In this document: positions 11,381-45,909 of the stretch, piece by piece
Layout: each line of letters opens with the position of its first letter
Numbering within the stretch: position 1 is the first letter of the stretch
DNA from: Thuidium tamariscinum
Taxonomy: Eukaryota > Streptophyta > Bryopsida > Hypnales > Thuidiaceae
Length of the DNA stretch: 64,000 bases
Reading direction: 5' to 3'
Assembly: GCA_947034885.2 (NCBI GenBank)
Contig: OX344749.2
Coordinates: 5,719,501 to 5,783,500, forward strand
Position numbers and translations under genes: made by a program
Notes under the pieces: generated by a model
The model's input: the letters and a program-made list of their open reading frames with translations, nothing else
Told to the model about the DNA's origin: nothing
Databases searched by the model: none

Positions 11381-11394
11381 TGTGGAAGTTTGGA
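11381..11394. repeat. Left target-site duplication
   Basis: TGTGGAAGTTTGGA, identical to 26804-26817 and in the same orientation. It directly precedes the left terminal repeat. Confidence 0.7.
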
Positions 11395-11450
11395 GGAATG
11401 CTGGTATGTGAGCAGGGAGCGGCGAGCGGAGAGCAGGGAGCAGGAAAAAG
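11395..11450 (+). repeat. Left terminal inverted repeat with GAGC array
   Basis: It contains GCTGGTATGTGAGC followed by GGAGC, CGAGC, AGAGC and GGAGC at about 7-bp spacing. The reverse complement of the right end has GCTAGTACGTGAGC and a similar GAGC series. The spaced GAGC units are candidate transposase-binding sites (inference). Confidence 0.65.
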
Positions 11451-11492
11451 TGAGCATGGAGCAGGGATTTTAGGAAAAAAGACCTACCTAAT

Positions 11493-11807
11493 CCTATTAC
11501 CGTGGAAAAGGGTACCTAAAACCGTGTAATTAGTTTGTTCCAAAAATATTAAATTTGAATTTTTTTCAATCCAATTCTAATCTAAAGCCATGGAATTTTG
11601 GAAGCTTAGATCTATAGCTATATGATATAAGCATTATGATCATGTAATTTCAAACATTTAAAGTTCTCTACAAGAGCAAAGAATAGAGATAAGAGAACCA
11701 AAAATGATTTATTAAAGTTTAATTTATGAAATTTAAGAGACCCTATTACCGTATAATTTTCATAAAAATTTAATTTGTATTAAAACGGGCATGTAAAGCC
11801 GTGGATT
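11493..11807 (+). repeat. Left subterminal ACCGTGGA-type repeats
   Basis: CCTATTACCGTGGA occurs at 11493-11506, with weaker relatives at 11741 (CCCTATTACCGTAT) and 11795 (AAAGCCGTGGATT). They match, in inverse orientation, TCCACGGTAATGGG at 26432-26445 and TCCACGGTCATAGG at 26523-26536. Confidence 0.55.
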
Positions 11808-12016
11808 GTTAAGGAAATTTGGATACCTAATAAAATGATGGTTTCTAGTTTTAATAAAAATAGAAGGAAATCTATGACCATGGATTTTTGTCATTTAAGA
11901 CATTAGATGTTTTTTGGGGCATTTAGAAGGCTAACATTGTTGAGAGATTATCATGCTAGATTTTACTATATTTTTAATTAATTATTAATTTAAAAAAATC
12001 AATTTTTTGTTTCTTA

Positions 12017-12075
12017 ACTTTCTGATTTTTTTTTTTTTTTTTTTTTTTTTTCCTTCAAAAAATTCAGACCAGCAG
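12017..12075. repeat. Poly-T tract
   Basis: A run of about 25 T followed by a small hairpin-capable ACCAGC/GCTGGT sequence. It lies between the left end of the element and the stop of the ParB-methyltransferase gene. Confidence 0.6.
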
Positions 12076-13439
12076 TCGCTGGTTCATTGCACAGTGAACA
12101 GTTTTAGGGAAGAACCCTGAAATAGTCTCCTACGGAGCAAAAAAACATCTAATACTTATAATGGAAAGACCAAGTAGCTTAAAGAAATTGAATGAAAAAC
12201 TATAATACTACAATACCACTCAAAAAAAGACATATATAGTTATGGCATAATATTGCAACCATTAAAGTTATAAGCAATTGTGAATCATTTAGAAACAAAT
12301 CTTTTGTTGTTTAAATTCACACAATGAGAAATTGAATACTCACCAAGATAAGAAGATACAATAAGTTTAAATATGTGGGTCACTTGGATATAGCATTCAA
12401 CATTTAGAACACACAATCAAATGCCTGTATAATATATATATGATAAAGCAAATGCCATAAAACTGGAGGGCAATTTAGAGCCACAATAGTGAAATACACT
12501 GAAAAATGAAAACCACTCAAAGACCACCACTAGAGCTACAGTCACTAGAGGTTGAACCTTCAATCTCAAATTCCTCTCTTTGATCTGCCTCTATATCCAA
12601 GAACTCCTTTACCTTTGGATCATATCGAAGCTTTTGTCGATTCACTATTGGAGATGGAGCATCAACATATGCTTGAGCAATCCTCTCTGCATAAACCGGG
12701 AGAATGAAATTGAAAGGCGGACTCTGCTCATTTGCATCTTGTACTTGCTCTACTACGGTGTCTCTGCAAGACAAGAAAAAAAGGTTAGTAAAATAAAATG
12801 TAATTCAAATATTCTTATAAAATGAAAAATGGTGACTTAACAAATGAATCACAACTTACGCACAAGAGATGAATCGATTCCTCTTTGGCTTCTTTGTAGG
12901 TGGCTGATCAAGCGGTGGGGTAGTGACTCTATCCTTGGTTGTAGAAATAGAGGCTGCAACAGGGGCAAACGGGGCAATCATAGCCTTGAAAATGAGAGGA
13001 TCATCTTCTAATGTTAAGATGTGCCGTCCAGTCTCCAAACAAGCCTTGATGGATGAACCTGTTGGAAAACAAAAAATATATGAATAAATTATGAAAAATC
13101 AGCTCCAAAGAATGATGAATAGAACTTAAAATTGTAGAAGAAAAAAAATACCTGTTGCAGCTTTGCAATCAAGGACAATATCTCCAGGCTTGCAAAATTG
13201 TAGGATGAGATCTCACATAAAGGGTAAGTTCTTCTCACGTGGACCTCTCCATGGAATTTTCTCATTCATAGAAAGGCTTTCAATATCCGTAAGATTGAAG
13301 AGAGCATCATTTTTCTCTAAAGGCTCACCATCATAAGAAGAATCACGGTTTTCTTGGAATGAAAACCGTGAAGGAATCTCCCGCCGAATAAACAATTGAA
13401 TCCAAAATCGAACAGACTGCAAACATTGAAAAGTTGAAT

Positions 13440-14290
13440 ATTAGAAAGAACTGTATCTCAGAAATTACAATATCAAGAGAGCTACAGAAATTTCAGAAAT
13501 CACAATGTCAAGGGAACTACAAAAATTTCAGAAATCACAATGTCAAATAAATCATTAAAACAAAGGACTTTATAAGTCTATTTTAGGATAGACTTTCTAT
13601 AACTTTCTACAAACTACTCACAAACTAAAACTTACAATGTCAAAAAAAATTTCAGAAATTACAATGTCAAGGAAATCACAGATATTACAATGTTAAGAAA
13701 ATTACAAAAATTTCAGAAATCACAATGTCAAATAAATCACCAAAACGAAGGACTTCAAAGTTTATTTTAGGAAAGACTTTCTACAACTTCCTACAAACTA
13801 CTCACAAACTAAAATTTACAATGTCAAGGAAATCGCAGATATTACAATGTTAAGGAAATTACAAAAATTTCAGAAATCACAATGTCAAATAAATCACCAA
13901 AACGAAGGACTTCAAAGTTTATTTTAGGATATACTTTCTACAACTTCCTACAAACTACTCACAAACTAAAACTTACAATGTCAAAAGAAAATTTCAGAAA
14001 TTACAATGTCAAAGAAATTGCAGATATTACAATGTTAAGGAAATTACAAAAATTTCAGAAATCACAATGTCAAATAAATCACAAAAATGAAGGACTTCAA
14101 AGTTAAGGGTAGAGTAGACTTTCTATAAATTCCTACAAACTAAAATGTACAATGTCAAAGGAAATTTTAGAAATTACAATGTCAAAGAAATAATAGAAAT
14201 TACAATGTCAAGGGAATTACAAAAATTTCAGAAATCACATAAATTTCATTGTCAAGGGAATTATAGAAAATTTCAGAAATCACAATGTTA
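13440..14290. repeat. Intronic tandem repeat, about 170-180 bp units
   Basis: About four imperfect copies of a unit built from short modules such as TTTCAGAAATCACAATGTCA and ACTTCAAAGTTTATTTTAGG. It fills the intron between methyltransferase exons 14666-14319 and 13416-13152. The same modules recur in the intron around 16.5-17.6 kb. Confidence 0.85.
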
Positions 14291-16499
14291 AAGAAGTCAC
14301 ATAAACTTTTTCATTTACCGTTAATGATGGATCCCGTGCAGATGCAAGATGTAGCTCATTGATTCCCCACCAATCTTTGGCCAACTTCATGTCATACTGG
14401 TCGGCCAACTCATCAACTTCTTTTAGCAATCTTCGGTCATCACAATGTATGAGTAGGAGGGCACCATCATCATGCAAATACATATCAGCCATCTCAAAGA
14501 GAGTCTCAACATAATTCTCTTTGCGCGCGTTCCACTCTGGAATTGAAGTTGAAAGACCTGGAACAGGTAGATTCTCTGGAATGTCTGCAATGATCAAATC
14601 AAGTCCTGTATGCTTGTATTCTTTGCAAAAGTCGGATGTGACAGTACGATTGCGAGTAGCACTAATCTGCACATTTCATACATGTAAAGTTAGAATTAAA
14701 ACCTTCAAAGCAATGCCATAAAAGATGAAATGTTGAAATTAAGTTGAGAATACAATACCTTAGCTATAGTGTCATGCAACCTTATCCATCGAGGATCAGG
14801 GCCAGTGGACTCTTGTAAACTATTCAAGAGAGTGATGAGAGAAGTGCACTCTACAAAGACATGAAGAGAGTCTTTAGGCTCTATCATTGAAGAGCTGGCT
14901 GAAGGGAACATGAATCGTTTCTTCTTTCGAATTCGATTACCAGTGGCATGAACAACATTCGATAAAGAAGAATCTGGAGCAGCAGGTGCAAGGCCATCAT
15001 CATGGCCTTGGTCTGACATGGGGGTAGTCTCATGACTCTGTGAAGGCGCGGCTACAAGCTCATTTGCTTGAGACTTCTGTCTTTCGGCTTCTTCTTTCTC
15101 TGCCTTCTCTTTCTCCGCCTTCTCTTTGGCCACCCTCTCCATCTCTTCCTTCTCCTTCTTTGTGAGCCGCTTCTTCTTTGGTGCCTTCTCTTGTGGTTGA
15201 TTGACTTCTTCTGCATCGTCAGGGTCAAGAATAGCAAGTTGTTCACCATCAAAAGCTGTCCTCTCTGCAACCTCTGAGTCAGGGGTGTAATTCCGATGAC
15301 AATCAAGGTACCACCCTCCCGCTTCTAAATGTGTAGCTTTGAACTTCTTCAATTGCTCAAATGTAAACATACAAAGATCAGAGTCTTTTTGCAACCAAGA
15401 AAGAAAAAAGGGTGGTACAGCTTCTGCTGAAATTGCATTTTTGGGAAGTAGAACCCGCATGAAGTACCTGAAGTCAAGGAGACAAATGTCATGATTGGCA
15501 AGTAATTCATGAATGAAAACAATAAGAACAAACAAAGCATTTTTATCAACTTTTAGAAGTAAAGGTAACAAATAGGAACCAAAAATAAGAAACAATAGAA
15601 ACTACATAATAAAATATTAAAGCAAGTAGATAAGTGCAATAGCATGATAGTACCTGTATACAATACGTCTCACTGCACTCTCAGCTCCAAGGAACTCTTT
15701 AAATACAGACTTCTTTGTATAGAGTTTCTGATCTTTGTTTCCAAAGAACGAGATAAATGCTTTGTCCCAAAGCAAAATGCGCCAACTCTCCATATAATCA
15801 GAGGGCTTTCGAACACCTTGTATGGTCCAATCTACGACAATGTTTTCATCTTTGCAAATGTTTGTAACCATCCTAACAACCGCCTCCTCCATCTATTAAA
15901 ATGAAATGAAGAATGTTAAAAATACAATAAAATGAAATCATAATAAGTGCAAGAAAGAAATGATTTGCAGTCACAATACAATACCTCAGCCCCAAAAGAT
16001 GCTTTATTGATCCAAGAATCCCAAAAGAGGTCTTTATCCTTGGACCCTGGAAAGCGATAAGATTGTCGAATTGTCAAGGATGCATTCCACCACCTTAACC
16101 ACCGTGCCTTGTGTTTTGCTTCAATGTTAGCGGTGGCAATTTTTTGAAGCTTTTCAATCGTCATTTCAGGATTTGGATATTCACTGAAGTGTCTATCAAT
16201 CTAAGCACATAAAAACATTTATATTAGATTGAAATGATGCAATGTATAGATAAATTCAAAGATTACAAGTTTAAATGGAATACAAATGAACTCATACCTC
16301 TTTGAGAAAATCATTTCCGTTCTTTGGATTTGCCACCGCTAGGTATTTGTCAAAGTCTTTGGCATGAACAGCCTTGACAAACTTGTCTGAGGCATTTTTC
16401 ATTGCTTCCCAAATGCCTGGAGCAGTCCTCTCTTGGAGTGGTGTCCGCATCGTGTACTCTCGAGCTGCTTCATCGGCGGCCAATGCAATCTCCCGCTAC

Positions 16500-17580
16500 A
16501 ATTGAAAATTACAAAAATTACTATGTCAAAGGAAATTTCAGGAATTACAATGTGAAAGAAATCATAGAATTGACAATGTTCATAGAATAACAAAAATTTC
16601 AGAAATTACAATGTCAAAGACACTACAGAAATTACAATGTCACAAGAATTACAAAAGATTTCAGAAATCACAATGTCAAAGAAATCATATAAATAGAGGA
16701 CTTCAAAATTTATTATAGAATAGACTTTCTATAAACTAAAACTTACAATGCCAAAGGAACTACAAAAATTTCAAAAATCACATTGTCTACAGAACTACAA
16801 AAATTTCAGAAATCACACTATCAAGGGAACTACAACAATTTCAGAAATCACATTGTCAAGAAAACTACAAAAATCTTAGGAATCACATTGTCAAGGGAAC
16901 TACAAAAATTTCAAAAATCACACTATCAATGGAACTACAAAAATTTCAGAAACCACACTATCAAGGGAACTACAAAAATTTCAGAAATCACACTATCAAA
17001 GGAACTACAGAAATTTCAGAAATCACACTATCAAAGGAACTACAGAAATCTTAGGAATCACACTATCAAAGGAACTACAAAAATTTCAGAAATCACACTA
17101 TCAAGGGAACTACAAAAATCTTAAGAATCACATTGTCAAGGGAACTACAAAAATTTCAAAAATCACACTATCAAGGGAACTACAAAAATTTCAGAAACCA
17201 CACTATCAAGGGAATTACAAAATTTCAGAAATCACACTATCAAAGGAACTACAGAAATTTCAAAAATCACACTATCAAAGGAACTACAGAAATTTCAGAA
17301 ATCACACTATCAAAGGAACTACAAAAATTTCAGAAATCACACTATCAAGGGAACTACAGAAATTTCAGAAATCACACTATCAAAGGAACTACAGATATTT
17401 CAAAAATCACACTATCAAAGGAACTACAGATATTTCAGAAACCACAAACTGAAACTTATAATGTTAAAAGAAATTTCAGAAATTACAATGTCAAAAAAAT
17501 CACAGAAATTACAATGCTAAAGGATTGTCAAAGATATTACAATATCAAAAGAATGTCAAAGAAATTACAGAAATGACATA
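16500..17580. repeat. Intronic 35-bp minisatellite
   Basis: From about 16783 to 17445 some 19 copies of a 35-bp unit occur, containing AACTACAAAAATTTCAGAAA and ATCACACTATCAAGG. Looser copies lie on both sides. It fills the intron between ParB-methyltransferase exons 17816-17687 and 16495-16298. Three units make 105 bp, so frames stay open by chance and give repeated peptides; this is not evidence of coding. Confidence 0.9.
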
Positions 17581-19105
17581 TAAATGTTGTAAGAAAAACA
17601 AATTGAAAATGTGATTGCACTTTATACAAAAAGGAGATGAAGACATTGACTGTCAAAGAAAACCAACTCGGTCTCATTGCCTTCACCTTCTCACAGTATT
17701 GGTACTCTTCAGGAGATATAAGGTCCTTGAAATCAGCAAGAGGTAAAACTCCAAAATTTCGAATTCGCCGCAATCGAGCTGGAATTGTACTCTTCACATG
17801 ATCATGCTCAGTAGACCTACACATTATACAATGCATTTGCATGAGAATGAAATCAAATTTCATGGCAATGAATTCATATTTAGATTCTTCACAAATAAAT
17901 TTAAATAGAATAAGAAACGTACCAGTTAATATCACTCATTGCATTTAGCAAGTTTGCCACTTGACCTCTTGGATCCAATATAATGCAATGAACTCGCCAA
18001 TGCCAATCAAGTTCTGTAGGATGATAGTTGGTGATGTGTCGCATCCATGCCGAGACACGATGATTTCCATCCCACACATAAAACATCTTGCCTCTCAATT
18101 GGGCAAGGTCATCATCAGCCATCAACTCTTTCTCAAACTCCTCATTCACATGTTGCCAATGAGGACTCCACCTTGCAATTTCTTCTTCAGTCACGTTCAT
18201 AGTTTTTTCGAAATTGTTGTATGGTGATATATATAGAACCCGATCACCATCTCGATAGCTAGTCATAAACTCACTCTCCAATCTCTGAACATCCATTTCA
18301 CCAACCGGTCGAACCTCGTCCATAACAATCATTCGACAAAGAGGTATCTCAAGGCGTGATCTAGAAACTGGTTGGATACGCAATGTGTTGATGAGTCCTG
18401 TAGTGTCCACTTTAAGCTGTTTGCGGTGGAGTTGCTCACTCTCCAATACACTTGTTACATCAGCTGGACATTCACATCTTGGTTCATCATCTTCAAGATC
18501 ACTAGATGCAACCTTCAAAAAAATGATAGAAAAAATGGCATTAGAGAAGAGAGTGATTTACATTTAAAACTTGTTGTTTTGAATAATTGTACATACACAA
18601 AGTAATGGAAAAGACATGAAGTTGAGAACATGTAGAAATTTCATTTACCTCAACAATTGGAGGTGCAACTCTTCCCGTTTCTCCTGTAACAACTCTCTCA
18701 CCATCATTGTTGTTCTCACCTTCTTCCTCCTCGACATATGTGATTTCAGTTTCTTCTTCTTCATTCATCTGATTAGTTGAAATCATTGAAGAAAACTTGA
18801 CATAAGTCCTCCATTATTTATAAATGAAGATGAAAGGAAAATGAACTCATTCTTGATTCTTGTTTACAGCATTGTAGTATACAAATAAGACAACACAAAT
18901 ACAACAACATTGACAACTGAATTCCTAAATAATCTCAAAGCTCTAAAAAATTTCCACAATGCATATCCAATTTCGTTTGAATTGAAGTAAACGCCTAAAA
19001 TCAGCTAAAAACTCATTCTATTAGAAAACTAGAGAAGCTACAAAGAAATCATGAAATGGCATCTCTTCTCAAAATTCAGCCTAAAGTAGTACAAGTTATG
19101 GACAG

Positions 19106-19667
19106 CCTCGTCAACGAGGACTATATGAGTTGAGTATAGTTCAAACCAAAACATTGGCATTGATCCAAAGAATGTGCAAATATTGTCCTTCAAATTTTTT
19201 TTGTTAAGAACAGCCCAACAATCTTAGCATTTTTCAATTAGATTCGAAGTTGTTTTGAGTGTCCTCGTCAACGAGGACTCCTCGAAATAGTCGTGTGTAA
19301 TTCAACCTAACGATCTAAACAAAGAATGTATAATTTTAGGTTTTTTTGTCAGCGAAGATTTCCCGAAAGGGTTGTAAACAAACCAATGTTGATTAGGATA
19401 GCCGCCGTTTTGGGTATCCTCGTCAACGAGGACTCCTCAAAACTGCACGTCCCGCAATTGCTGCCCCCCCCCCCAAAAAATGTACAAAACTTCGAACTAG
19501 AAATGACAGAGAAAAAATTAGAGGAGAAAACAAACCTCAATGTCTGGCTGAGTGTCTTCTTGCGGTCCACGCGAAGCCACCGCCGACCGCTCTGCAAATT
19601 CTCCCTCTTCCATCTGCAGCAACAATCGCCACAAATCGTAAGCAAAGAAGATGCCTCGTCAACGAGC
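19106..19667. promoter_or_regulatory. Cluster of four 14-bp near-palindromes
   Basis: CCTCGTCAACGAGG occurs at 19106-19119, 19263-19276 and 19418-19431, and with one change (last base C) at 19654-19667. The arms CCTCGT and ACGAGG flank a CA centre. The first three lie in the intron after the first exon (19613-19536) and the fourth lies upstream of its ATG. The surrounding 155-157-bp units are diverged tandem copies, yet this core is unchanged. The sequence suggests a protein-binding site; a site for the element's own ParB-like protein is inference. Confidence 0.6.
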
Positions 19668-19732
19668 GATCTTCCTCTGCGCTAAACCCTCAGCAACTTC
19701 GACGCACGATTGGACTGGTTTGCAATGCTGGC

Positions 19733-19743
19733 CTCGGGGGGGG

Positions 19744-19775
<32 letters not shown>
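19733..19775. repeat. G-run and poly-A tract
   Basis: A run of nine or ten G is followed by about 32 A. On the minus strand it lies just upstream of the first exon of the ParB-methyltransferase gene, in its presumed promoter. Confidence 0.7.
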
Positions 19776-19778
<3 letters not shown>

Positions 19779-20335
19779 TCAAAATTGGTAGATTTAGGTC
19801 AGCGCTTTATTTCGAATAGCAAATGTAATTTTGAGTAATTTGGTTTGAAATTTTTTTCATACGTAGATTATAACCTTATAGTTAACTCCAAATTTTTTTA
19901 GAATTTTTAGACTCACTACTGATTTTACAAAAATCGTCAAAGTTCACAAAAAAGTCCGCGGGCAAGATTTGCCTAAAAATCTTCCGATTCTGAAGATTTC
20001 AGACCAGGTTCCAATCTGCTGAAATCGTTTTTAGGCCATAAAACATTCAATAACCATCCAATTTTTATGTGCCATATACCGTTGGAATCGTCTTCTTAAA
20101 ATACACGAGAAGGTCTTCCCTATCAAATGCAGCTCTACCAAAAAAAAATTCATACTAATTCAACAAACAACCTAATCATTTTGGTATCTATTCTTCTATA
20201 CTTTCAAGCATCTTCTGGCTTTGTTATGTAATGAACTAGTAAATAAGTACTTAACAAGTGTTCTTCTAAACAAATTCTCACTACATCTTATTTAAAACAT
20301 CAACTTCAAATGATCAAATAATATGATATACTTAC

Positions 20336-20740
20336 CAAATCTTGTCTACTTTGGGCAGGTTCTTCGCTATCTTCGTCACTCTCGTCCTCGCTCTCGTCCT
20401 TACTCTGATCGTCTTCTTCGCCATGTATGTTGTCCTCATCTCTTTCAACCATAGATACTGGTTCTTCAATAATCTTATCAAGACATGAAATATCGTCACC
20501 AACTATGTCGACCACTTCTTGGTCACCAAAATCAAGTGCTTTAGACGTCTCACCATAGCTATGCTTTCCTCTACTTAAAATTTTGGCCCCTCTCATCTTA
20601 GCTCTTGATCTGGCCTTCGGAGTTGTGTAATATAGTTTGCGTCTTTTTCTCTTCTTTTTTATCAACCTACTTGCAACCTGAGACTTAAGGATCTTGATTT
20701 CTTCAAGCATCTGATCTACCACACATACATTCCGAAACAA
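20336..20740 (-). CDS. Basic/acidic exon, possible alternative 5' exon of the ParB-methyltransferase gene
   Basis: An open stretch of about 135 codons ends exactly at a strong donor (TTTG, then GTAAGT). It starts with a short amphipathic helix (MLEEIKILKSQV), then a basic nuclear-localisation-like cluster (KKKRKRRKL), and ends in an acidic tail (DESEDESDEDSEE). The donor is phase 0, and so is the acceptor at 18768, so it could splice to the acidic exon there as an alternative to exon 19613-19536. It could instead be part of a separate small gene. The protein itself is not recognised. Confidence 0.45.
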
Positions 20741-21794
20741 GCATCACAATAATACCGTCTCTATCACCTCCAAATTATCTATCATTCAACCCTACTAGCT
20801 GTAGACATAGTTCTAATAAACATTGAGTCTAATTTAAATAATGTTTTTAGCTATTCAAAGCCTTCAAAAATTGACAAAGGTGCATCATTCTCATCTCTCA
20901 CAAATCTACAATCTTCTTTCACAACAAGAGTAAAAATCACCCACTGGATGCATAGCTACTGTAACACAAACTCAAAACGCTTTCAAGACCAAAGAAGTAT
21001 TACAATGATGTCCTACAACTTTAATAAAGATGGTAAGCAAGATGTACTACCAAGAAAAACTTAAACTCTCTGGCAATGGTAAATGACAATTGTACAAGTC
21101 TGAAGTTTATTCAAATTTTGAAATCTGACGGATCTGTTATTCTAAATGTTATTTCTTGTATAAATACTCTATCAATCTTCTACTATAACGTAAACCTGCA
21201 GGTGGATTTGGCGCTCCCACTACTTAAATGTTTGTATTTCCTTTGATTCTTTGTTCCTGTTTCATACAAATGACGGCTACTTCTAATGTGGGCCACTTCT
21301 AATGTAGGCCACTTCAAACTAAAATCTTCATATATACTATATTTCATTTATTTTTTAATTCATAATTCATAATCATTATTAAATTAATTAACATGAGACA
21401 TGTTTATTTTCATAATTAGATTTTTATTAATCTAATTAATTTATTCAAGTTTATACTATTATTAATAAATTTGGTACTATGCTTTATTGTCTACTATGTC
21501 AGTATGTCAGTATGTCACCATTAGGTGTTTTTAGTTTGCTTCTCTTTTCTAATGAGGTTCTTTTAAGGGATCAAGATTAATGTCACTTCTTGAACTCTTG
21601 TCAGAATTCATCATTGAGAAATTTTCAAACGATTTCCTAACTATTGCTAAAGCCGTTGTAAACTACTTCATCATCATATTTGTTAACTACATATTTGTTT
21701 CCAGCACAATCTCTTTCTTTTCAATTCATTTCTTCTGAGTGCAGTATGGACGTAAATTAGAATGGTATCTTCATGAGACTTCAATCTTTAAGCA
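20741..21794. promoter_or_regulatory. Divergent intergenic region
   Basis: It separates the minus-strand genes from the plus-strand transposase and probably holds promoters for both directions. No specific element can be pinned down beyond AT-rich stretches near 21330-21480. Confidence 0.35.
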
Positions 21795-24700
21795 ATGGTA
21801 GACTTTACAGAGATGGCTATTGTAAGGGCGAATGGTGAAGGGGTTCCAATAACGTTTCTAGTAGGCAAAGATGGATTTGCTGTGGTTTCTGCGTTTCGAT
21901 TAAGTCTTAGGTTTCAGTTGAACAAGGATTCACTTTATATTGATGAAGAGGTGTTCGATGATCATAGTGGAGACCTTACTCACACAATTGGTCAAGTCCT
22001 TGTTTCAGATGGTGTTGGTAGATTGTGGCATTTGAAGCCTGGTCAATTTAGGGTGTATGGATTGCATGAATCCATTATGGTAACTTCTACGAGTGTTTTT
22101 ACACCTCGTCAGTCCTCTACGTCCTCTCGTGAAACACCTTTAACAACACGAATTAAATTAGAGCCTGGTTTGAATGATGTCACCATTCTAAGTGATGATT
22201 CTGATGACAATTCTCCCAAGCAACTGCAAAGCTCTAAGATTCGATGTCATGAGTCAACTTTATCAAGTTCTAGTACTTTGCCCAGTTCTAGTACATTGCC
22301 AAGCTCTAGTATTTTGCCCAATTCTAGTACTTTGCCCAACTCCAGTACTTTACCCAGCTCAAGTACTTTACCCAGCTCAAGTACTTTACCCAGCTCAAGT
22401 ACTTTGCCCAACTCTAGTGCTTTGCCCAACTCTAGTACTTTGCCGAGTTCTTATGAGCCATTATTTGCCAATCCCTCTAGTAGCAACGAATCTATTACAT
22501 CTGTCATTGATTGTTTAAGAGAATTGCGTACACTGAAGGGATGTAGAAATGTCTTGAAAAAAATTGATTATGACACTATTACTATTCATAGAGTGAGCGT
22601 ATTACCTCCAACTTTCAATGGAGATGTCATTTTTGAGTTTCTACCACTTACTACCTCCACTGTTCTATCTCAAGCTAAGCAAATGAGTGGGATGGATAAG
22701 CGGTATGATGGGCATGTCTGGTCTAAAACTATTACAACAAATATAACAAATACCATGGGATTATCATTCCGTACATCTTCATGTGTAGGACATCTTCAGT
22801 GCATCAATCCGGGCTGTGAGTTTCTTAGTCGTATTCATCGAACCAAGCCTGTCAATGAACTAGAATGGGAAGGGTTCACACCATCACTATTTGAAGTAGG
22901 AAGTGCACATCCTCAAGGATCAACACTTGTTTGTAAAATATGCAAGCAACCTCCATTCTGTATTGCTCGATGTTCTGCAAAGGTATATTATGTGTTTGGA
23001 AAACAAAACTTCTCTCGTGCATTTGTACATCTTGACATTCATCAACATCCTATCAAAGATGGTGAACTCAGAGACATCAAGGAGCGAACCCGTATTCTTA
23101 TTGGTGAACAAATGGAGAGAACACCAGTTGCGACAAACTCTTCAATTGTGTTGGAGGCTACAAAAGAACTTGTGGGAGAATTATTGCTACGTCCAGATGG
23201 AGTTCCAGTGAAGACCCTCAACATTGATGAACTTCTTCCAGTTCTTGACAAGTGCAAATATTTCAGCTCTCCAAATATTCGAAATGAGGTAACTTCATTC
23301 AAATACTTAAGGAGGTTTGGAGTTATGGATAGCATTACAAAATTGAGGGGTACAAGCTCTTGGGCATTTGTTCAAGAGAATAAATTTCCAGGTCAAGGAT
23401 CGGATATGGATAAAGTTTTTGTCTTCAAAATGTCGGAAGTTGGACCCGGTAGTGGAGTAGACTTGGTCAAGCGAATGCAATCCGACGGTGACCTTCAGGA
23501 TGCTTGGTTAATGTTTGATTATGTTAAACGTATTAAAGGTTGGACTACCATGGCATGTCATGTCTACGACTCCATGTATTGTCGTGTTATGACTATTGCC
23601 GTCTGTGATATGCAATCTGAAGACTGTGCTACTCAAATTGTATTTTGGAAAAACTTGAATTCGGTTCTTGCAAGACATGGTGTATCTCACCTTAAATTCA
23701 AGGGATTTATGGCTGATAGTGCCCAAGCAAATTGGAATGCTGTGAGGACAATTTATGGATCAGGTGACATTTATGTTCCAATGGAAAACCAAGAAAGGAG
23801 TTGTCTTTTCCATTGGACTCAATCAATGGAAAAGCATACAAAAGCTGATATTCGATCAGACTTACAAGATCAACATCGTTTGCTATGCAAACAATACAAG
23901 AATGCTATTTCCTCTGAAGAATCAGAAACTCGATATCTTGCCATCAAAGCTTGGTGGTTATCATCTAGTGCAACAACAGAAGAAGGACTTCATCGATTGG
24001 AACTTTGGCTATCCTTCTGGCATTTCCGTTACCACCAATGGGGAGGATTTGAACAACTTGTAAGTATCTATTCTTCATCTATTCTATTTCAAATATCTAT
24101 TTGTTTAAATCTATTTATAGCAAAAAATTCAAAATTTAATTTTATAACCATTACTAATCATTCGGACAATGTCAATTTGAAAATGTATGTATAGTATACA
24201 TGATTTTACTACAATTCTTATAATTACTATAAATAGATCATCAAAGACAGTATGGATTATTATTTATTGCATTATTAATCAAAAAAATTATATTAAATTA
24301 GAGACCAATAATCCTTGTCAACAAAGATCATGAGATTTGAATCTTCAATCATTTTATTTTTGTAACACTAAAAGTAGACATAATTTAGCATGCCTTGCCA
24401 CTTCATCAACGACAATGACACATCTTAACCTCCTTTTCTAGTTTTTTGATAAAAAAATGACATGAACTAAAAAAGAGGTCTGTTTTCTTTGTCCTTGATG
24501 ATAAAAAGTTTATTGTCTTTTCTTGATTCATATTATAATTTCCTTCTTACTTTGATTACTAGTTATACTATCAATATTAATAGTAATAATGTTATTCTTA
24601 CAATACATTTATATTTTTTTCTAACAAAATTTTCATTTTTGATTTCATTGTCATTTCAGAATCTGAGTGAATCTGAGCTCGCGGAAATGCCTTCTTGCAA

Positions 24701-26129
24701 TTTAGCCGAAACTGTTCATAACAAGTGGCTTCAACAATCTGGAAATCGAGGAAACGATTTATACATTGCCACTGTTGACGACTATGTAAGAGCCTTTATG
24801 CAAATGGTCAAGTGTTATCAATATCTTAAAGGCGATCAAGCTGGAACAGGACCTGGAAAGGAAGAATTGTTACTCCGAGTTGCCCAACGATCAGCGCAAC
24901 GATCGGGGAATCCAAAGGTGCTCACTGAAGCTATGTCCAACATTCCAGAAGTGAAAGAATTTCTCAATAGGGAGCCTCGTCTTGAAGGTGAAGAAGTGTT
25001 TGGATCACAAAAACGCAAGCCAGATATGCCATTGGGCTGTGAATATGATTCACACCGCCCGGACAAAGTGAATTTTTCTCATCCACGCATTCAAATGAGG
25101 TCGAAGAGAGCCTCCACAGGCATTCAAAATTTGAATCCTATTATTGAAGATGTTATTCCAACTGCAGATACTGAGATGGAGGATCCGATGACAACTGAGG
25201 GCAATTTAAGAGAAGGTTTTACTTACAGAGTTCCTCATGTGTCAGCAATTCAAGAGAGCAACTGTGATGAGTTTCAGTGGCACATTGCAAGGCTTCCTAA
25301 ATCCTCAGCAAAGGCTTGCTTTGCCCTCCAAGCTATTTCGAAGAAGAAGTGTACAGCAAGGATTGTCTAAAACAATATTGCTACAGCAGCACCAACGTAT
25401 ACAGGAATGATGACCAATTATAAGAAAAATCGAAATGAGCAAATGCAATTTTTCTTTTGCAATGACGACATTGAACGTTGTGTGAAGGGTATAAGTCGGA
25501 AGTGGGTGTTGTCAAGACCTAATGTCCCTGCCATATGGCCTGTCAAAATGGGTACCAATTTGTCAAAGCAAGAGATTTTGGCATTTGAAACTGCTGGCTT
25601 TCAGCTTCCACAACGTCAAGTTATTTCACCCCGAAGACTGTTTGGTGGAGAAGCAGGTTTAGATTTGGTCTCTGCTTATCCTGTTCCATGTATACCAGAT
25701 GAGCATCCAAAAATTCGGTCAGGGAAAACCATTCGTCGGAATCCAAAGGCGCCAACAGTAAAACACGCGAACAATTGTGCATCTGCAATTACACTGAAGG
25801 CATGCATTCGTCGGGTAACAATGTTTCCTCACCCTGGATTTGGTTGCATTGTTTGCCTTGACTCTGGATTGGAGCCAAAAATTGAACAATATATGCTTAC
25901 TATTTCATCATTTCCAGAGTGTTCATGTCCATACTTCAAAGAAATGGCTACAAAGTCATTAGGCAAGCGAGGACAATGGACAAATTGTAAGCATCTCTAT
26001 TTTGTTTTTACAATCATTTGCAACCTTGAGTCAGCAATAGATGCCTTCATTCATGCCCCAAGTTTCAGTTTCAATGAAGTCAAGAAGATCCTTCTTAGTG
26101 GGATATTAAATCATTTAGCTCTAAGTTAG
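21795..26129 (+). pseudogene. MULE-like transposase with SWIM zinc finger, one internal stop
   Basis: Two exons, 21795-24059 and 24660-26129, joined in phase 0 across a 600-bp AT-rich intron with a GTAAGT donor and TTTCAG acceptor; about 1244 residues. The N-terminal third is unfamiliar and holds a Ser/Thr/Leu/Pro repeat. The catalytic core shows Asp575 (AWLMFDYVKR), Asp641 (FMADSAQANWNAV) and a CxxH motif C670-LF-H673 (RSCLFHWTQ), as in MULE transposases; the acidic third residue is probably in the helical part around TEEGLHRLELWLSF. A SWIM finger (ECSCPYF...NCKH) lies near the C-terminus, also typical of the family. A TAA at 25368-25370 (codon 992) interrupts the frame between core and SWIM, with clean coding character on both sides. 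The protein would cut and join the element ends; this copy should give a truncated product unless the stop is read through. Confidence 0.75.
22255..22445 (+). repeat. 18-bp coding minisatellite (SSSTLP repeat)
   Basis: About 11 in-frame copies of an 18-bp unit around AGTTCTAGTACTTTGCCC encode SSSTLP/NSSTLP hexapeptides in the N-terminal part of the transposase. It is a flexible linker-like tract, and copy number is probably variable between copies of the element. Confidence 0.9.
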
Positions 26130-26431
26130 ATTTTTTATTGCAAAACAGTATCAACTTTTGTACCTTCTGTACTCATCAATGTATATGTAGTGAGACTAAA
26201 AGGGCCACTACTTCCATTTCACTTTCAGCATTGAGATTACTGTATAATTTTTGTTGTTTTCCTTATACCTATATTTTGCATTATGGTTTATTATATTCCA
26301 TCATTGATATCATGTATTTGTACCTTCATTCTCTTCTAACCATTGTGTTTTGATTTTAATTTTTTAGTTTATAATTCAAATTCTCTCATTTCTTTTTGAA
26401 ACAAAATACACAATCATCAATTCTAAAAATG
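26130..26431. other. 3' flank of transposase gene
   Basis: AT-rich non-coding sequence, presumably the 3' untranslated region and polyadenylation region of the transposase transcript. Confidence 0.4.
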
Positions 26432-26536
26432 TCCACGGTAATGGGTCTATTTGAGATTTATTATATGACACAAAAGCAATTCAATTCAACTCTCAACTTC
26501 TTTGGTTTTAAGACAATTTACTTCCACGGTCATAGG
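26432..26536 (-). repeat. Right subterminal ACCGTGGA-type repeats
   Basis: TCCACGGTAATGGG (26432) and TCCACGGTCATAGG (26523) are inverted relatives of the left-end motif CCTATTACCGTGGA. Confidence 0.55.
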
Positions 26537-26624
26537 CACTGTAGTAGTGAAGTTACAATTTTGAATGGTATATATTTTGATTTTTACCTTTTTCATCTGT
26601 TATTTTCGTCCATTGTCTTCCATT

Positions 26625-26725
26625 TTTTCCATCTACTTTCATCTTTTTTTCATCTACTTTCATCTACTTTCATCTACTTTCATCCATTTTTTCCATCCAC
26701 TTTCATCCATTTTCATGCAACTTTA
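26625..26725. repeat. TTTCATCYA tandem repeat
   Basis: Successive copies of CATCTACTTT and CATCCATTTT, period about 10 bp, lie just inside the right end of the element. Confidence 0.8.
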
Positions 26726-26747
26726 TTTTTTTTCATCCCAAATCAAT

Positions 26748-26803
26748 GCTCCCCGCTCACAACTTGCTGCTCACCGCTCACCGCTCACGTACTAGCGACG
26801 TTG
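26748..26803 (-). repeat. Right terminal inverted repeat with GCTC array
   Basis: It contains CCGCTCACAACTTGCTGCTC and CCGCTCACCGCTCACGTAC. Its reverse complement resembles the left end (GCTAGTACGTGAGC against GCTGGTATGTGAGC). Confidence 0.65.
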
Positions 26804-26817
26804 TGTGGAAGTTTGGA
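26804..26817. repeat. Right target-site duplication
   Basis: TGTGGAAGTTTGGA, the exact partner of 11381-11394. Confidence 0.7.
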
Positions 26818-28958: not shown

Positions 28959-30035
28959 TCAACCTTGGCTGAAGGGCAGTCTGCACATTGGGCAAGTGTC
29001 ATAACCTGCAAGCAAATAGTGTCTCACACACTCCGGATGCACAGCATGGCTGCATGTTGTGTCAGTCGTTGATGGTGCATCGATAGACCCAAAACAAAGA
29101 GCACAAGTGATCTCATCCTCATGCTCTACTCCTTCCTGCCCAGTGCCACCAAGCCTCACTGCAGTAATGATGAGGCTGCTCCAATCTGCGGTGTTCTGTC
29201 CTGCAGCGTCGTCGAACGTATGGTACTCCTTTGCGGTAGTCACGTTCCACTTGCTCATCATGTCAACTCCAGAGTCTCTCTTGCGACCCTCAAACATCCA
29301 CTCGCATCCATAGAACCGACATGTCGCAGCAGTGAAACTTTTCTTACAGCTTGGACAATTCACAGGTTCAGCAATGTTGAACACAGTGAAGCCCAAACGG
29401 CACCAGACGTCACAACCATGTGCTGCACACTCAATATTCTGGCACTTCCCTCCGATATTCAGGCCTCGAGAATAGTTTCTCCAAGGCTTGGAAGGATTTG
29501 GGGCATGTCTTCGGTTCGCCCTTATGCGTGTCTTCAAAGAAGACATATTCTGCATGTCTACGAAAGTTTGCGACTTCGTACAATTTGCATCTCCGCCACG
29601 CAACCTCCCAACAACATGCACAGTCGACCCAGACACCGGCAGCGAGAAATTGTCTGGTGACAGACGCTTTCCACCACAAACCATCTGGAAGTCCTGCTTC
29701 GGGGAATAACCCTCGTGATCTCGAATGGCATCCTCCACATCGGCTATGGAGCTTTCAGGTGGCAGGTGAACCACGAATGATACACCCTGGAGGCTTCTCA
29801 CAACCAAGGATACAGAGTCACTGACCTTGGATGAAGTGCCCAGCCTTGTACGCACTGAGAAGCGACACGAGTTTCCGACTTTCATCATGGTGGGCAACAG
29901 ATGTGCGAGTTGACGCTCGTTGCCCAAGCGCATCCCTCGATACAAGAGCTCCTGGACTGACAGGTTGTGACTAGTGGCGATTGCCTTCTTCAATTGACGC
30001 ACTGTACGAATGTTATTGATGCTGACTGAGAACAT
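28959..30035 (-). CDS. Tandem ubiquitin-like / RING-H2 protein, copy 1
   Basis: Probable E3 ubiquitin ligase of 358 residues in one coding exon. Ubiquitin-like domain 1 starts at MFSVSINNIRTVRQLKK. Domain 2 begins about SLVVRSLQG and ends with a ubiquitin-type GRLRGG. A Cys-rich domain follows (GLNIGGKCQNIECAAHGC, NCPSCKKSFTAATC, FYGCEWMFEGRK), and a C-terminal RING-H2 (CALC, CSHAVHPEC, CPMC). The acceptor TGTGCAG near 30116 is shared with copy 2, so at least one 5' exon exists upstream. Relative to copy 2 this gene lacks two bases just upstream of the first ubiquitin-like domain (TTCTCAGTC against TTCTCTCAGTC), so the frame from the shared exon start is lost and the ATG at 30035 becomes the best start. 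The GG end suggests possible processing, which is inference. Confidence 0.8.
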   Translation of the reverse strand: MFSVSINNIRTVRQLKKAIATSHNLSVQELLYRGMRLGNERQLAHLLPTMMKVGNSCRFSVRTRLGTSSKVSDSVSLVVRSLQGVSFVVHLPPESSIADVEDAIRDHEGYSPKQDFQMVCGGKRLSPDNFSLPVSGSTVHVVGRLRGGDANCTKSQTFVDMQNMSSLKTRIRANRRHAPNPSKPWRNYSRGLNIGGKCQNIECAAHGCDVWCRLGFTVFNIAEPVNCPSCKKSFTAATCRFYGCEWMFEGRKRDSGVDMMSKWNVTTAKEYHTFDDAAGQNTADWSSLIITAVRLGGTGQEGVEHEDEITCALCFGSIDAPSTTDTTCSHAVHPECVRHYLLAGYDTCPMCRLPFSQG

Positions 30036-31300
30036 TTCGCAATCGCCGGCCTTGAATGTTGGTGATATCAAGCATCCGCTCCAAGTTTGCCTTGCCAGTG
30101 GTGCTCCTGCACATGAAGAAAATCAGTTATAACAAGTGCTGGCTGGGTCATGCCCTTCTCGATCTGCCTGATTTCAAGATCATCAATCCGAAACACTCCT
30201 TGATTCTATAGCAGTTACATTAAATTTGCAACCCTAGTATACTTCAAAAATCTTGAAATAATGCACATCATATAAATTGGAAAGATAGACGTACCTAGCC
30301 CTTAGGGAACCTGGGTTAGTCTCTCCTTTAGATTTCGTCATGTTCACTGTTTCAAAGCAAGGTTTGACTGCAATTAGAAGCTGCCGAATAGTGTCTTAGA
30401 TCTGAATCTGGAAGTAGCTTCAACGAAGACGAATCAAAGGAACCGAGAGGATTTCTACGAACTCACGGACGGTTTTGCTTCATCACGACCTCAGCCCAAG
30501 AAAAACTGTCAACCATAACATATACATGGACCTAATATTGGAAAGTAACGCTTGCAATCTTCGAAGCAATATTTACTCTCTTGCAATACATTGAGCAGTC
30601 TACCAAGCCTAGCCGTTTGCAGGATGTAGCAAAACAATTCCTCTCCAGATGTTTCCCACGAAAAATAGAGCAAGGAGGAACAATATTGTCACTAACCTAG
30701 TTCACGGAGATGGATATTTCAGCAACTTGATAACGAAGTCCCACAGGCTTAAGAAATCCGAATTCGAAACAGCATCAGCACAGGACGTTGAGTCTTGACA
30801 ATCCACAACAACTGCAACTTGAAGGACCGCATGCCTTGTCCATTTATACACATAAGGCCTCAGGGCTCAGGAGCCTCAGATGAATGTTCATTCAAACTAG
30901 CTAGTCATGAATGGAACTCTTGTGATTGGAGATCATGAACTAAGAAGCTATGAAGTTATGATTTTGAGCAGATGGGCTCTGCAATTGCACAGTCAGATCT
31001 GTCTCTCTCAGAATGATTAGTTTATATGTGATTGATCAGTTTTGAGGACTGCAAGGGGGCATTGCGACTTGAGAGCTAGGGAAGTTATCATGATATAGTA
31101 GAACATCAAATAACTATGAAAAGTAAAGTAACTAGTCCAAGAAGCAACCCTTTACCAAGTGAATCAAAATTGGAGTCAGTTGATGTTGTGGATGAATTTT
31201 TAATGAAAGAAGAATGAAATTTGTAGTGAATACAAGAGGAGGCAAATTTTTTGAAATGTTTGACATTTATTTATAATTTTTAAAAGTGAAAGTCAGTAGG
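30036..31300. other. Upstream region of ubiquitin-like RING copy 1
   Basis: It contains the remainder of the last exon up to the acceptor near 30116 and presumably a 5' untranslated exon around 30.7 kb (minus strand, donor-like GTTAGTGAC). No other gene is seen. Confidence 0.4.
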
Positions 31301-34714: not shown

Positions 34715-34937
34715 TAAGGTAGGAGCATCTAATAGCGTCAGTGTACCTAATGCCGCCATTCTCTACGTATGACAGTTATTTCAGAACTAAAATGAATGTA
34801 GACAGTAGATAACTTACTGACGTTGACCAAAATAATAAGCTCTCTACACTGTGCCGACATTTCAACTCTGAAATCATTGTCTTGCCTACATAGTGACAAC
34901 ATTAGGTACACTAATGCCATTGGGTGCTTCTACCTTA
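34715..34937. mobile_element. MITE with about 40-bp inverted repeats
   Basis: The left end reads TAAGGTAGGAGCATCTAAT. The reverse complement of the right end reads TAAGGTAGAAGCACCCAAT, and both continue through AGTGTACCTAATG. Non-coding, 223 bp; a TA duplication is possible. Confidence 0.75.
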
Positions 34938-35445
34938 GTTCATTTACTAATTCACAAATTTTTCAGTGAATTTTCACCAAATAGAAAGTTCAGCAACCTT
35001 AGAAAACTTTAGAAAGCTTTTGTAGAGTTGTAGGGTAAAAAATGAATTGATTTTAAAATTGCAAATTGCAATTCCATTGCAATGAAGTGCACTTCAACTT
35101 TATAACAAATGAAAAATGAATAATTGAAAATCTTACAATAATTTGGATTTCTTTTATAAACTATCTACCATTCCTTAGAGAATCTTTAGAAGATACTAAA
35201 TTTTTTTTGCGATGGCAAGTGAAGAACAAGCAAGAAATCAAGTAGTATGGAATGATGAGTGTCCGAAAAATAACTTCAAACATTCATTTTGAGCATACTC
35301 AATGGAATTATGTGAGTAGTAATTTTGGCAAAAGGTGGTACCACTAGATTGTCAATAGTGTACAAAAGACATCCAAAATGTTACATGACTTGAATTTCAC
35401 ATATACATTTTTATTATGATGACAGAGTACTCTTCTCTACATGTA

Positions 35446-35551
35446 GTTGTATCCAATTTATAGCCCAATATCAAGTCTCAATAGTCTTGGCAATTTCTTA
35501 ACGATGGATATTTATGAGAGGTTTGATATTGAGCTATAAGTTGGATACAAC
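35446..35551. repeat. 34-bp-arm hairpin
   Basis: Arm 35446-35479 (starting GTTGTATCCAATTTATAG) pairs with 35518-35551 with about four mismatches around a 38-base loop. It could be a small foldback transposon or a small-RNA precursor; nothing distinguishes these here. Confidence 0.7.
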
Positions 35552-36701
35552 AACATGGAAAATTTGCCAACGTCCAAAACTAAACTACATAGACTAAGAG
35601 CAAATCTAGTTATAACTCTAAGAATCACTAGAAATAAATGAAAACTATGACTTAGAAAAACAATTTGCCTTGCAATAGAACAATACAATGATTTCTTCAT
35701 CTTAATTAGTAAGGATCAATACAAGATTTTTTTTGAAAACAAAATAAGAGCATGGTTTGCATTTTCTCCCTTACAAAGACCATTACACAAACAAGGTTGG
35801 TTTGATCAAGTGAATCCATAAACTACATGATTTCTATTCTAAGTGGAAGAATTAATATGGTTTGAATTATCAAGGGAGTTGGCCCTTTTCGACCCATCCA
35901 CTACTCCCAATCCTCCAAAAACTCATCCCCAACACCTTGCAATCTTTTGAAATTAGAAGACAAATCATCTTCAAAATCTTCAAATTGATTTTTTGTCTTC
36001 TTCAAAAGTGATTGTAGAAAACACCATGTACAAGATCAACAACTGATAATTTTTAAAAAAAGCCTAAAAATGTTGCAACCTGTTTAAGATATGAAATTTA
36101 AGAAATTAATTAAAAAAATTACACGTATAATTAATATTGATTGTAATTTAATCAATATTAAGATATCTAATGTCAAAGAAGCAATTTGATGATTTTTTTC
36201 TTTAACTTTCTATAACATTGCCTACTTACAAAATCCAAACAAATGTTGTTCTATAAGTAAAGAAGAACAAACAAAAATTGAACAAGTATAATAATGATGA
36301 TTATCCTTTAAAATAAATTTGATAAACATCTATTTTTGAAGAAGTGATTATAAAACCTTTCATAATGAAACTTAGGCCCTTCAATCATTACTTTAGCATA
36401 TTGCATCAAAGTAATGGATGCTTTGGTGTATTTGTGAGATTAAAGAAAAAAATCGTGAACTTCACTAAAATAGTGGTGTTCATGTGGAATTTTTGACATA
36501 TTTCATGCCACTTTAACAATGATACAAGGGGCTTGCCTTGAAATAGACTTTGGAAAATATAAATTACTTTGCAAGAAAATCATATTTTCTTCTATATGTT
36601 CACAAAGCTTTTTTTATACACTCGCAAATAAATAAATAAATGATCATGAAAGTAATGGATAATCTTCTAGCTTTGGATTGTTTTTACAATACTTCACTAG
36701 G

Positions 36702-38207: not shown

Positions 38208-39480
38208 GGGTTGAACCAACCGAATCCAGAAACAATGTTTCTTCCGCTACTCAAACAAATATGATCGCGGTGCTTTACAATGCTTTCAGCTGAATCCTGG
38301 CAATGATGATGTTTTTGACCTTTGTCACTTATAAGTGAGGTTGCCCTATGCACGTTCCTTGCTACAGTGGCAGTGAAGTTGGAATGAAATGGGCTTTTGT
38401 GGGAAGCAGGTCATTCGCAATGTAAGAGAAGATCGAAATCTGAGGCGGTGAAGAATGACAGTGAAAAACTGCCTCCACTAGAGCCCAATTCGGATATACC
38501 TTCAGTTTTTTTCAACCTAAAAAATCGACATTGCAGAATTACTTGTAGAGCTGATGGCTTAATTTGTTGTTTTTCTTACACTTTCCAATGTCAAAGAGAA
38601 CATTAAACCTGGCACCTTTATTTAGCCTGCATCTCCACAGTACGTCTTCTTGTATTCATGTGTTCAACAGGATTGGCTGAGTGAATACAGCACACTAATT
38701 CAGCAACTTGCATGAAAATTTTCCGAATTGGAGATTTGAATTTGCAGATGGTATACTTCATATGTGTCTCACTCATCAATTATTAGAAGTCTCAGATCAT
38801 ACATGACATGAAAACAACAGGCCACCGTCGAAGTTGACAAATGCATGCTCCCAAGAATTTCATAGGTGAAGCCATGGCGGCATGCATGCACTCAACTTGG
38901 GACTTCAAGGGAGGAACGGGCAGTTCTTACTCATAGTTGCTGTTGCATCGACCAATACAAGCCAGAGCTTTCATCCTAGAATCTTATCCAGACTTCAGGT
39001 TTTAGATATAACTCTTTCTGGAACTGTCACTGTAGAAGTGAGAAAACTGGCAGTTAATTAAGTGACAGTTCTTGACGGCAAGACCAAAGCCCAGTCTCTG
39101 GCGCAGTGCACGATCTCTTTCCCGAGGTGATGAAATTGAAGTTCTCAAGTCCTGTGTTGTTACTTTGCTCGATATTCAGAAGAATAGCTGAACCCGCTAG
39201 AGTTCCCAGATTTCACTTGGCATATAGACTTGATCAAACACTTTTCAGTACGTAAATGACAATGTTTCAGCAATCTATATTTTACACCACAATTGCAGAG
39301 TCATAAGGCTAAACGCGGGTTGTATAGAGGGATCCCAAGGGCCTTTCAAGGGTTAAGTAAATCTGTTCGAGAGGGTATTTGGATAGTGATAATCATGGAA
39401 TCCGCAGGGCAATGACCTAACAAATGCTCCAATATTCCTTCCTGTGCAGGAGCACCACTGGCAAGGCAAACTTGGAGCTG
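38208..39480. other. Upstream region of ubiquitin-like RING copy 2
   Basis: Moderately GC-rich. It contains the splice acceptor CTGTGCAG at about 39443-39450 that precedes the coding exon, as in copy 1. An upstream exon is expected but not located. Confidence 0.4.
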
Positions 39481-45745: not shown

Positions 45746-45909
45746 CACTAGAAGAAATCTGTGTTTGCCTCAACAAAATCTACTTGATGCGTTTGTTGAG
45801 GCAAATGCAAAAACTACGTTGAAAAACGCAGAAAAACACAGTTTTTGCGTTTGCCTCAACAAACACATCAAGTAGATTTTGTTGAGGCAAATGCAAAATT
45901 CTTCTAGTG
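45746..45909. mobile_element. CACTA-ended foldback element
   Basis: 164 bp beginning CACTAGAAGAA and ending TTCTTCTAGTG, a near-perfect hairpin over most of its length (arms contain TTTGCCTCAACAAAATCTAC, repeated as TTTGTTGAGGCAAA). The CACTA ends suggest a CACTA-type MITE. The matching arms also make it a plausible source of small RNAs. No clear 3-bp target duplication is seen. Confidence 0.75.

Follow-up and report, generated by a model that had tools for sequence, protein, structure and literature searches.

The window analysed here, a stretch of 64,000 nucleotides from Thuidium tamariscinum (contig OX344749.2, positions 5,719,501 to 5,783,500), contains a large DNA transposon with two divergent genes. 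One encodes a transposase; the other, on the opposite strand, encodes a predicted protein (the second protein) that combines a ParB-like domain with a methyltransferase-like domain. A sequence-only reading of the window had described the element as a Mutator-like element (MULE) carrying a ParB-methyltransferase fusion as cargo. The coordinates of all features are collected in Table 1.

The boundaries of the element were determined by comparison with sibling copies in the genome (363 Mb, 19 contigs). Twenty siblings could be compared at both ends; they start with GAGGAATGCT or a near variant and finish with GACGTTG or a near variant. A 10-bp duplication flanks all 20 (17 copies exact, 1 with a single mismatch, 2 with two), and among control flank pairs drawn from different copies, 3 or fewer mismatches were found in 4 of 380. 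Since the siblings fix the start, the end and the 10-bp flanks, the window element was placed at 11393-26803, with GAGGAATGCT as its first bases and GCGACGTTG as its last. The 14-bp direct repeat noted earlier is real and exact (11381-11394 and 26804-26817, with no third occurrence on the plus strand of the window), but only 12 of its bases are target-site duplication; the final two are the element's own GA. The inverted GAGC-rich ends were also borne out, as a short imperfect inverted repeat with GAGC-rich 7-bp repeats. It matches at 20 of 30 positions, a value that shuffling one arm 10,000 times never reached.

The search by ends, which the sequence-only reading had proposed, thus recovered 20 further two-ended copies. 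They are 12.0-19.9 kb long, 15 of them at 15.3-16.8 kb, and the possibility of ends about 21 kb apart was rejected on these lengths. In 18 copies, the listed ParB, methyltransferase and transposase exons lie inside the element; in a 19th, the transposase was present once its sequence was read, so that 19 of the 20 carry both genes and none is transposase-only. The remaining copy (G000:C5:20221708-20233701, 12.0 kb) has both ends, an exact duplication and the methyltransferase exon, with no listed ParB or transposase exon, and is probably an internally deleted derivative. Genome-wide, 592 candidate ParB exons (best 150 scored, E≤3e-35), 914 candidate transposase exons (best 83 scored) and 548 candidate methyltransferase exons (best 150 scored) were obtained; these are candidates rather than confirmed copies, and put the number of candidate copies in the family in the hundreds. 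At two places, ParB and transposase exons lie 39-78 kb apart (G000:C3:45445484 and C3:45523121; G000:C6:12023253 and C6:12062632); each pair may be one element, split perhaps by nested insertions. Given that, of the 39 further left ends scored, 27 match that of the window at 97% identity or better (one over part of the query) and that two siblings are about 95-97% identical across long stretches, the family appears to have moved recently, and the transposon is best described as a putatively recently active two-gene element.

The transposase was assessed by predicted structure, alignment and profile searches. Its best structural match, the GCM zinc domain aside, is the DDE transposase ISCth4, which has the IS256/Mutator fold; the zinc-domain match is GCM/WRKY-like and weak. 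An alignment of 45 sequences shows an invariant D641 and conservation of 90% or more at D575 and C670xxH673, the aspartates being candidate catalytic residues. In MULE transposases, a WRKY/GCM/FLYWCH-type zinc domain precedes the catalytic core, CxxH follows the second Asp and a SWIM finger lies C-terminally; MULE target-site duplications are about 8-11 bp. Of the signatures claimed earlier, the conserved aspartates and CxxH were recovered, and the SWIM profile matched at E 0.95, under the cut-off. The curated MULE and Transposase_mut profiles gave no match for the window transposase, and one of the 45 aligned sequences weakly matched PF00872 (E 0.034); Pfam runs on individual members of this set were uninformative. 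The sequence profile found nothing convincing in the PDB, and a search of viral_contigs yielded no close relatives. Because of the modelled Mutator/IS256 fold and the duplication length, 10 bp in all 20 siblings, the transposon is assigned to the Mutator/IS256 transposase class, in agreement with the MULE-like label first given to it. It resembles MULE/MuDR and bacterial IS256 elements in fold, CxxH, weak zinc match and 10-bp duplication, and differs from them in its short, imperfect ends, in having no Pfam MULE match and in its second gene, which has no counterpart in the MULE literature consulted. The window copy has an in-frame TAA at 25368-25370. An 18-bp coding repeat at 22269-22444 encodes a Ser-Ser-Thr-Leu-Pro type array.

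The joins of the ParB-methyltransferase-like gene were read by hand from the sequence and are therefore predicted; the exon order is kept in relatives. The window copy has a single in-frame TGA (13213-13215, exon E10). The domain bearing the GNHR motif, which had been called ParB-type, adopts a ParB/sulfiredoxin alpha+beta fold in the predicted structure, and GNHR with several neighbouring residues is at least 90% conserved across 50 sequences. Profile matches were weaker: the PHROG ParB profile matched at E 0.09, and the 50 aligned sequences gave no ParBc match in Pfam, with CB_ParB_C in 2 at 0.089 or worse; Pfam on single ParB members was uninformative too. The ParB sequence profile found nothing convincing in the PDB, the ParB alignment found no close prokaryotic or viral relatives in genome_contigs and viral_contigs, and NCBIfam gave no matches. 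A full-length search with the second protein returned no relatives among the 7,989 scored candidates sharing most words, a list that a low-complexity region probably flooded; when exons alone were used, 84 of 141 candidates were relatives.

The C-terminal part of the second protein matched PF01555 (N6_N4_Mtase) at E 9.8e-7 and 29.4 bits, over the Pfam cut-off of 26.7, and the same part of all 8 relatives examined matched at E≤1. The domain also matched CcrM at E 2.8e-8 with nearly the whole profile covered, and its motif order (IV, X, I) and fold are those of beta-class DNA amino-methyltransferases. Both domains named in the sequence-only reading were thus recovered, one by profile and one by fold. 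The catalytic motif is another matter. Aligned to DPPYNL of CcrM, the family sequence reads D-V-P-E-G-L, and (D/N/S)PP(Y/F/W) was found in none of 39 readable loci, which a similarity search with the window exon had gathered, near-identical relatives included, along with 20 short stretches from further families. The fourth residue of motif IV is aromatic in 0, Glu/Asp in 37 and Lys in 2 of these loci, and 22 have D-x-P-E. In known enzymes, the aromatic residue of DPPY contacts the flipped base. Motif I is mostly D-x-x-A-S-T-G in place of DPFxGxG, with its glycines partly replaced; its last Gly and a downstream E-x-D are mostly kept in relatives. The exon-by-exon search with PF01555 gave no matches among 44 candidates in the moss's own genome (the control was positive in 11 of 14 genomes); a canonical enzyme encoded in a single exon was therefore not seen there. 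Among phages, only distant methyltransferases matched (14 records, best E 4e-4). In some families (L089 and L090; also G000:C11:6963993 and G000:C11:413878), the methyltransferase exon lies within an open frame of more than 400 codons, which may point to loss or relocation of introns.

We considered whether the two genes belong together. Counted from the listed rows alone, a ParB exon lies at most 15 kb from 56 of 83 transposase exons, 55 of these ParB exons being upstream and divergent and 1 not. The other 27 have no listed ParB exon nearby; the divergent gene was present in all three of these that were read, and the 27 may reflect the extent of the scored sets or nested insertions. Among the 30 ParB exons of 93% identity or more, a transposase is listed for 29 and was recognised at the remaining one once its sequence was read. 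Across 20 loci (one close sibling, the rest with a ParB-exon identity of about 40-45%), the order of ParB and methyltransferase exons is the same in 19, with short or linker exons unmatched in several and L053 matching only up to exons 6-7. The pairing therefore holds between families with about 40% ParB-exon identity, and the gene, previously viewed as the cargo of one element, is instead a recurrent partner across the family.

The ratio of nonsynonymous to synonymous substitution rates (dN/dS) was measured on 12 pairs and was computable for 9 (ParB), 10 (methyltransferase part) and 9 (middle part). The values were 0.05, 0.13, 0.46, 0.36, 0.07, 0.07, 0.06, 0.11 and 0.20 for ParB (two with saturated synonymous sites); 0.19, 0.22, 0.47, 0.20, 0.17, 0.11, 0.11, 0.12, 0.11 and 0.38 for the methyltransferase part; and 0.17, 0.19, 0.12, 0.25, 0.16, 0.34, 0.55, 0.52 and 0.32 for the middle part. 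The higher ParB and methyltransferase values belong to pairs with few synonymous changes, and some loci have stops. These low ratios indicate that the ParB and methyltransferase domains are maintained by selection; at the sequence level, the second gene is under purifying selection. In L049 versus L055 and L064, and in L062 versus L063, synonymous divergence was about 0.7-0.8 in the ParB exon and about 0.12-0.16 in the methyltransferase exons, as if recombination or gene conversion had exchanged the 3' half among families.

Tandem arrays occupy much of two introns of the window gene. For the core motif of the window array, the element holds 19 occurrences, the remainder of the window one and a sibling stretch 22, and all 11 other loci tested lack it; a single array motif common to all families was rejected on this count. 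Arrays as such are widespread: 19 of 24 loci, in 7 of 8 clusters, have one above the score threshold (L051, L052, L053, L069 and L070 have none), and the flanking 48.6 kb has one. By eye, array units look unlike between clusters and in places also inside one cluster.

Table 1. Features of the transposon and its genes (window coordinates)
Feature	Coordinates	Strand	Description
Transposon	11393..26803	.	15,411 bp; boundaries from 20 sibling copies, ends recurring in genome
Left target-site duplication copy	11381..11392	+	12 bp here, 10 bp in siblings
Right target-site duplication copy	26804..26815	+	12 bp here
Left terminal inverted repeat	11393..11422	+	imperfect, 20/30; continues into GAGC-rich 7-bp repeats 11410-11467
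Right terminal inverted repeat	26774..26803	-	GCTCACC repeats immediately internal
Transposase gene	21795..26129	+	two exons, 21795-24059 and 24660-26129; 1,244 codons
ParB-methyltransferase-like gene	12517..20710	-	13 exons, ~1,237 codons; GT-AG, phase-consistent joins (predicted)
Exon E0	20336-20710	-	ParB-methyltransferase-like gene
Exon E1	19536-19613	-	ParB-methyltransferase-like gene
Exon E2	18649-18768	-	ParB-methyltransferase-like gene
Exon E3	17923-18512	-	predicted ParB/sulfiredoxin-fold domain, GNHR motif
Exon E4	17687-17816	-	ParB-methyltransferase-like gene
Exon E5	16298-16495	-	ParB-methyltransferase-like gene
Exon E6	15985-16200	-	ParB-methyltransferase-like gene
Exon E7	15654-15892	-	ParB-methyltransferase-like gene
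Exon E8	14759-15467	-	ParB-methyltransferase-like gene
Exon E9	14319-14666	-	methyltransferase motif IV region; DIPE replaces DPPY
Exon E10	13152-13416	-	with E11 (12860-13416): motif X and motif I region, DCKAATG
Exon E11	12860-13058	-	with E10: methyltransferase motif X and motif I region
Exon E12	12517-12763	-	ParB-methyltransferase-like gene
Tandem arrays, E9-E10 intron	13458..14305	.	TCACAATGTCAA-type units
Tandem arrays, E4-E5 intron	16533..17569	.	35-bp unit, ~20 copies, plus related units

Other genes of the window include one leucine-rich-repeat gene and two ubiquitin-like RING genes, the latter being diverged copies with a RING finger each (28959-30122 on the minus strand and 39421-40614 on the plus strand; DNA 73% identical). 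An open reading frame at 60445-61008 (minus strand) strongly matches an AtuA ferredoxin-like domain (E 5e-38). Four self-complementary, hairpin-like stretches (45746-45909, 34715-34937, 42047-42385 and 35440-35557) are possibly small non-autonomous elements.

ParB-methyltransferase genes opposite transposases are already known from algal transposons, as the accessible part of PMC12477816 describes. Sola1-1_Ec32 of the brown alga Ectocarpus (21.5 kb) carries a ParB-like plus methyltransferase gene opposite its transposase, and the same source cites similar proteins in red and green algae (Iyer 2011; Petroll 2025). By that description, the two systems share a protein of about 1,100 amino acids with ParB-like and N4C/N6A methyltransferase domains, encoded in a large DNA transposon whose transposase is on the other strand. 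They differ in transposase, Sola1 there and IS256/Mutator fold here, and the likeness is one of description only. The earlier statement that no plant MULE with such a cargo had been described therefore needs narrowing: the combination is known in algae, and the open-licence literature searched, in its accessible parts, describes no ParB-methyltransferase gene in a Mutator-like element. New in the present case are the Mutator-type element, the linkage that recurs between diverged families, the changed motif and the arrays within or close to the gene.

Three further systems offer comparisons. Among bacterial and phage ParB-methylases, Bce_0392 of Bacillus cereus fuses a ParB domain to an amino-methyltransferase, and nicking and NTPase activities of the ParB family are described in the available text of PMC5512222; the moss protein shares this fusion, as well as the nearly full-length CcrM profile match, and differs in its intron-rich gene, replaced catalytic tetrapeptide and long extra middle region. 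Fungal DNA transposons carrying TET/JBP, as outlined in PMC12730594, likewise carry a DNA-modification-type enzyme, a dioxygenase there and a methyltransferase fold here. Arabidopsis VANC binds motifs in tandem repeats, in introns and upstream, of its own elements, and these motifs differ between families (PMC5735166, in the part accessible). VANDAL21 and the present element both have an accessory gene and intronic tandem arrays that differ between related families; sequence-specific binding to their own arrays, with loss of host methylation there, characterises the VANC anti-silencing proteins, whereas the arrays here were seen in sequence alone. Since only N6_N4_Mtase reached the Pfam cut-off in the second protein, there is no sign of a shared family, though VANC itself was not compared; the parallel in the arrays is suggestive only.

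Considering the fold, the replaced motif, the linkage and the selection together, we favour, at somewhat better than even odds (about 0.55), the reading that this is a Mutator/IS256-class two-gene transposon whose second protein would be a dedicated, non-methylating helper acting on the element's own DNA. The ParB-like clamp domain would bring the protein to the element, plausibly to the arrays in or beside its own gene. The methyltransferase-fold domain, lacking DPPY, would act as a DNA- or S-adenosylmethionine-binding or protein-contact module and would not be a classical N6-adenine or N4-cytosine methyltransferase. The element would probably gain protection from host silencing or assembly of its DNA for transposition, a logic comparable to that of VANC of Arabidopsis VANDAL elements, not by descent. 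A non-canonical but conserved motif, together with selection, suggests a role other than classical methylation. The role first proposed for the protein thus stays plausible insofar as it concerns the element's own DNA; marking by methylation is weakened, since none of the 39 readable loci retains the catalytic motif.

The strongest competitor, unlikely in our judgement, is an active enzyme that writes N6-methyladenine or N4-methylcytosine on element DNA, as proposed for the algal proteins in the accessible text of PMC12477816. The beta-class fold and motif order, the motif-I-like D-x-x-A-S-T-G loop kept in most relatives and the purifying selection all fit such an enzyme; the loss of DPPY throughout and the partly replaced motif-I glycines do not. 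Less likely again, the ParB-like domain might be a nickase or nucleotidase aiding transposition or processing, with the remainder of the protein positioning it. ParB/sulfiredoxin relatives include DNases and NTPases, and the Bacillus cereus ParB-methylase nicks, according to the portion of PMC5512222 available; the strong conservation of GNHR and several neighbouring residues would also fit this reading, but the transposase has its own DDE-type fold. That the second gene is a captured passenger without a role for the transposon is very improbable. Plant MULEs do carry genes (Pack-MULEs, as mentioned in the accessible part of PMC12477816) and a partner is missing from the list for 27 of the 83 transposase exons, but the same divergent partner recurs in families with ParB exons only about 40% identical, all three apparent exceptions that were read contain the gene, exon order is kept and dN/dS is low; cargo capture was judged unlikely on the recurrent pairing and these three loci. 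A sequence artefact or misread gene model, to which hand splicing, one stop per gene in the window copy and a model built from sequence alone might point, is scarcely credible, given that the exons recur in copies on many contigs, in a good many cases stop-free at the exon level, and that relatives occur in other public records.

For the non-methylating helper, a more specific form can be put forward tentatively, although we consider it rather doubtful: a large Mutator-class clade may have turned a bacterial-type ParB-methyltransferase into a self-recognition clamp that co-evolves with family-specific arrays as a eukaryotic counterpart of parS, keeping the element open to expression and transposition. 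If this were true, the clamp would be convergent with VANC, and pseudo-methyltransferases would form a class of transposon anti-silencing factor. Few ways are known by which transposons escape silencing, and proteins that recognise the element encoding them are among these. The occurrence of a ParB-methyltransferase accessory gene with a second transposase class points to repeated recruitment or exchange of this module, and an abundant family that pairs a ParB-like clamp with a rewritten methyltransferase offers a testable case of whether such a protein would methylate, clamp or unmask its element.

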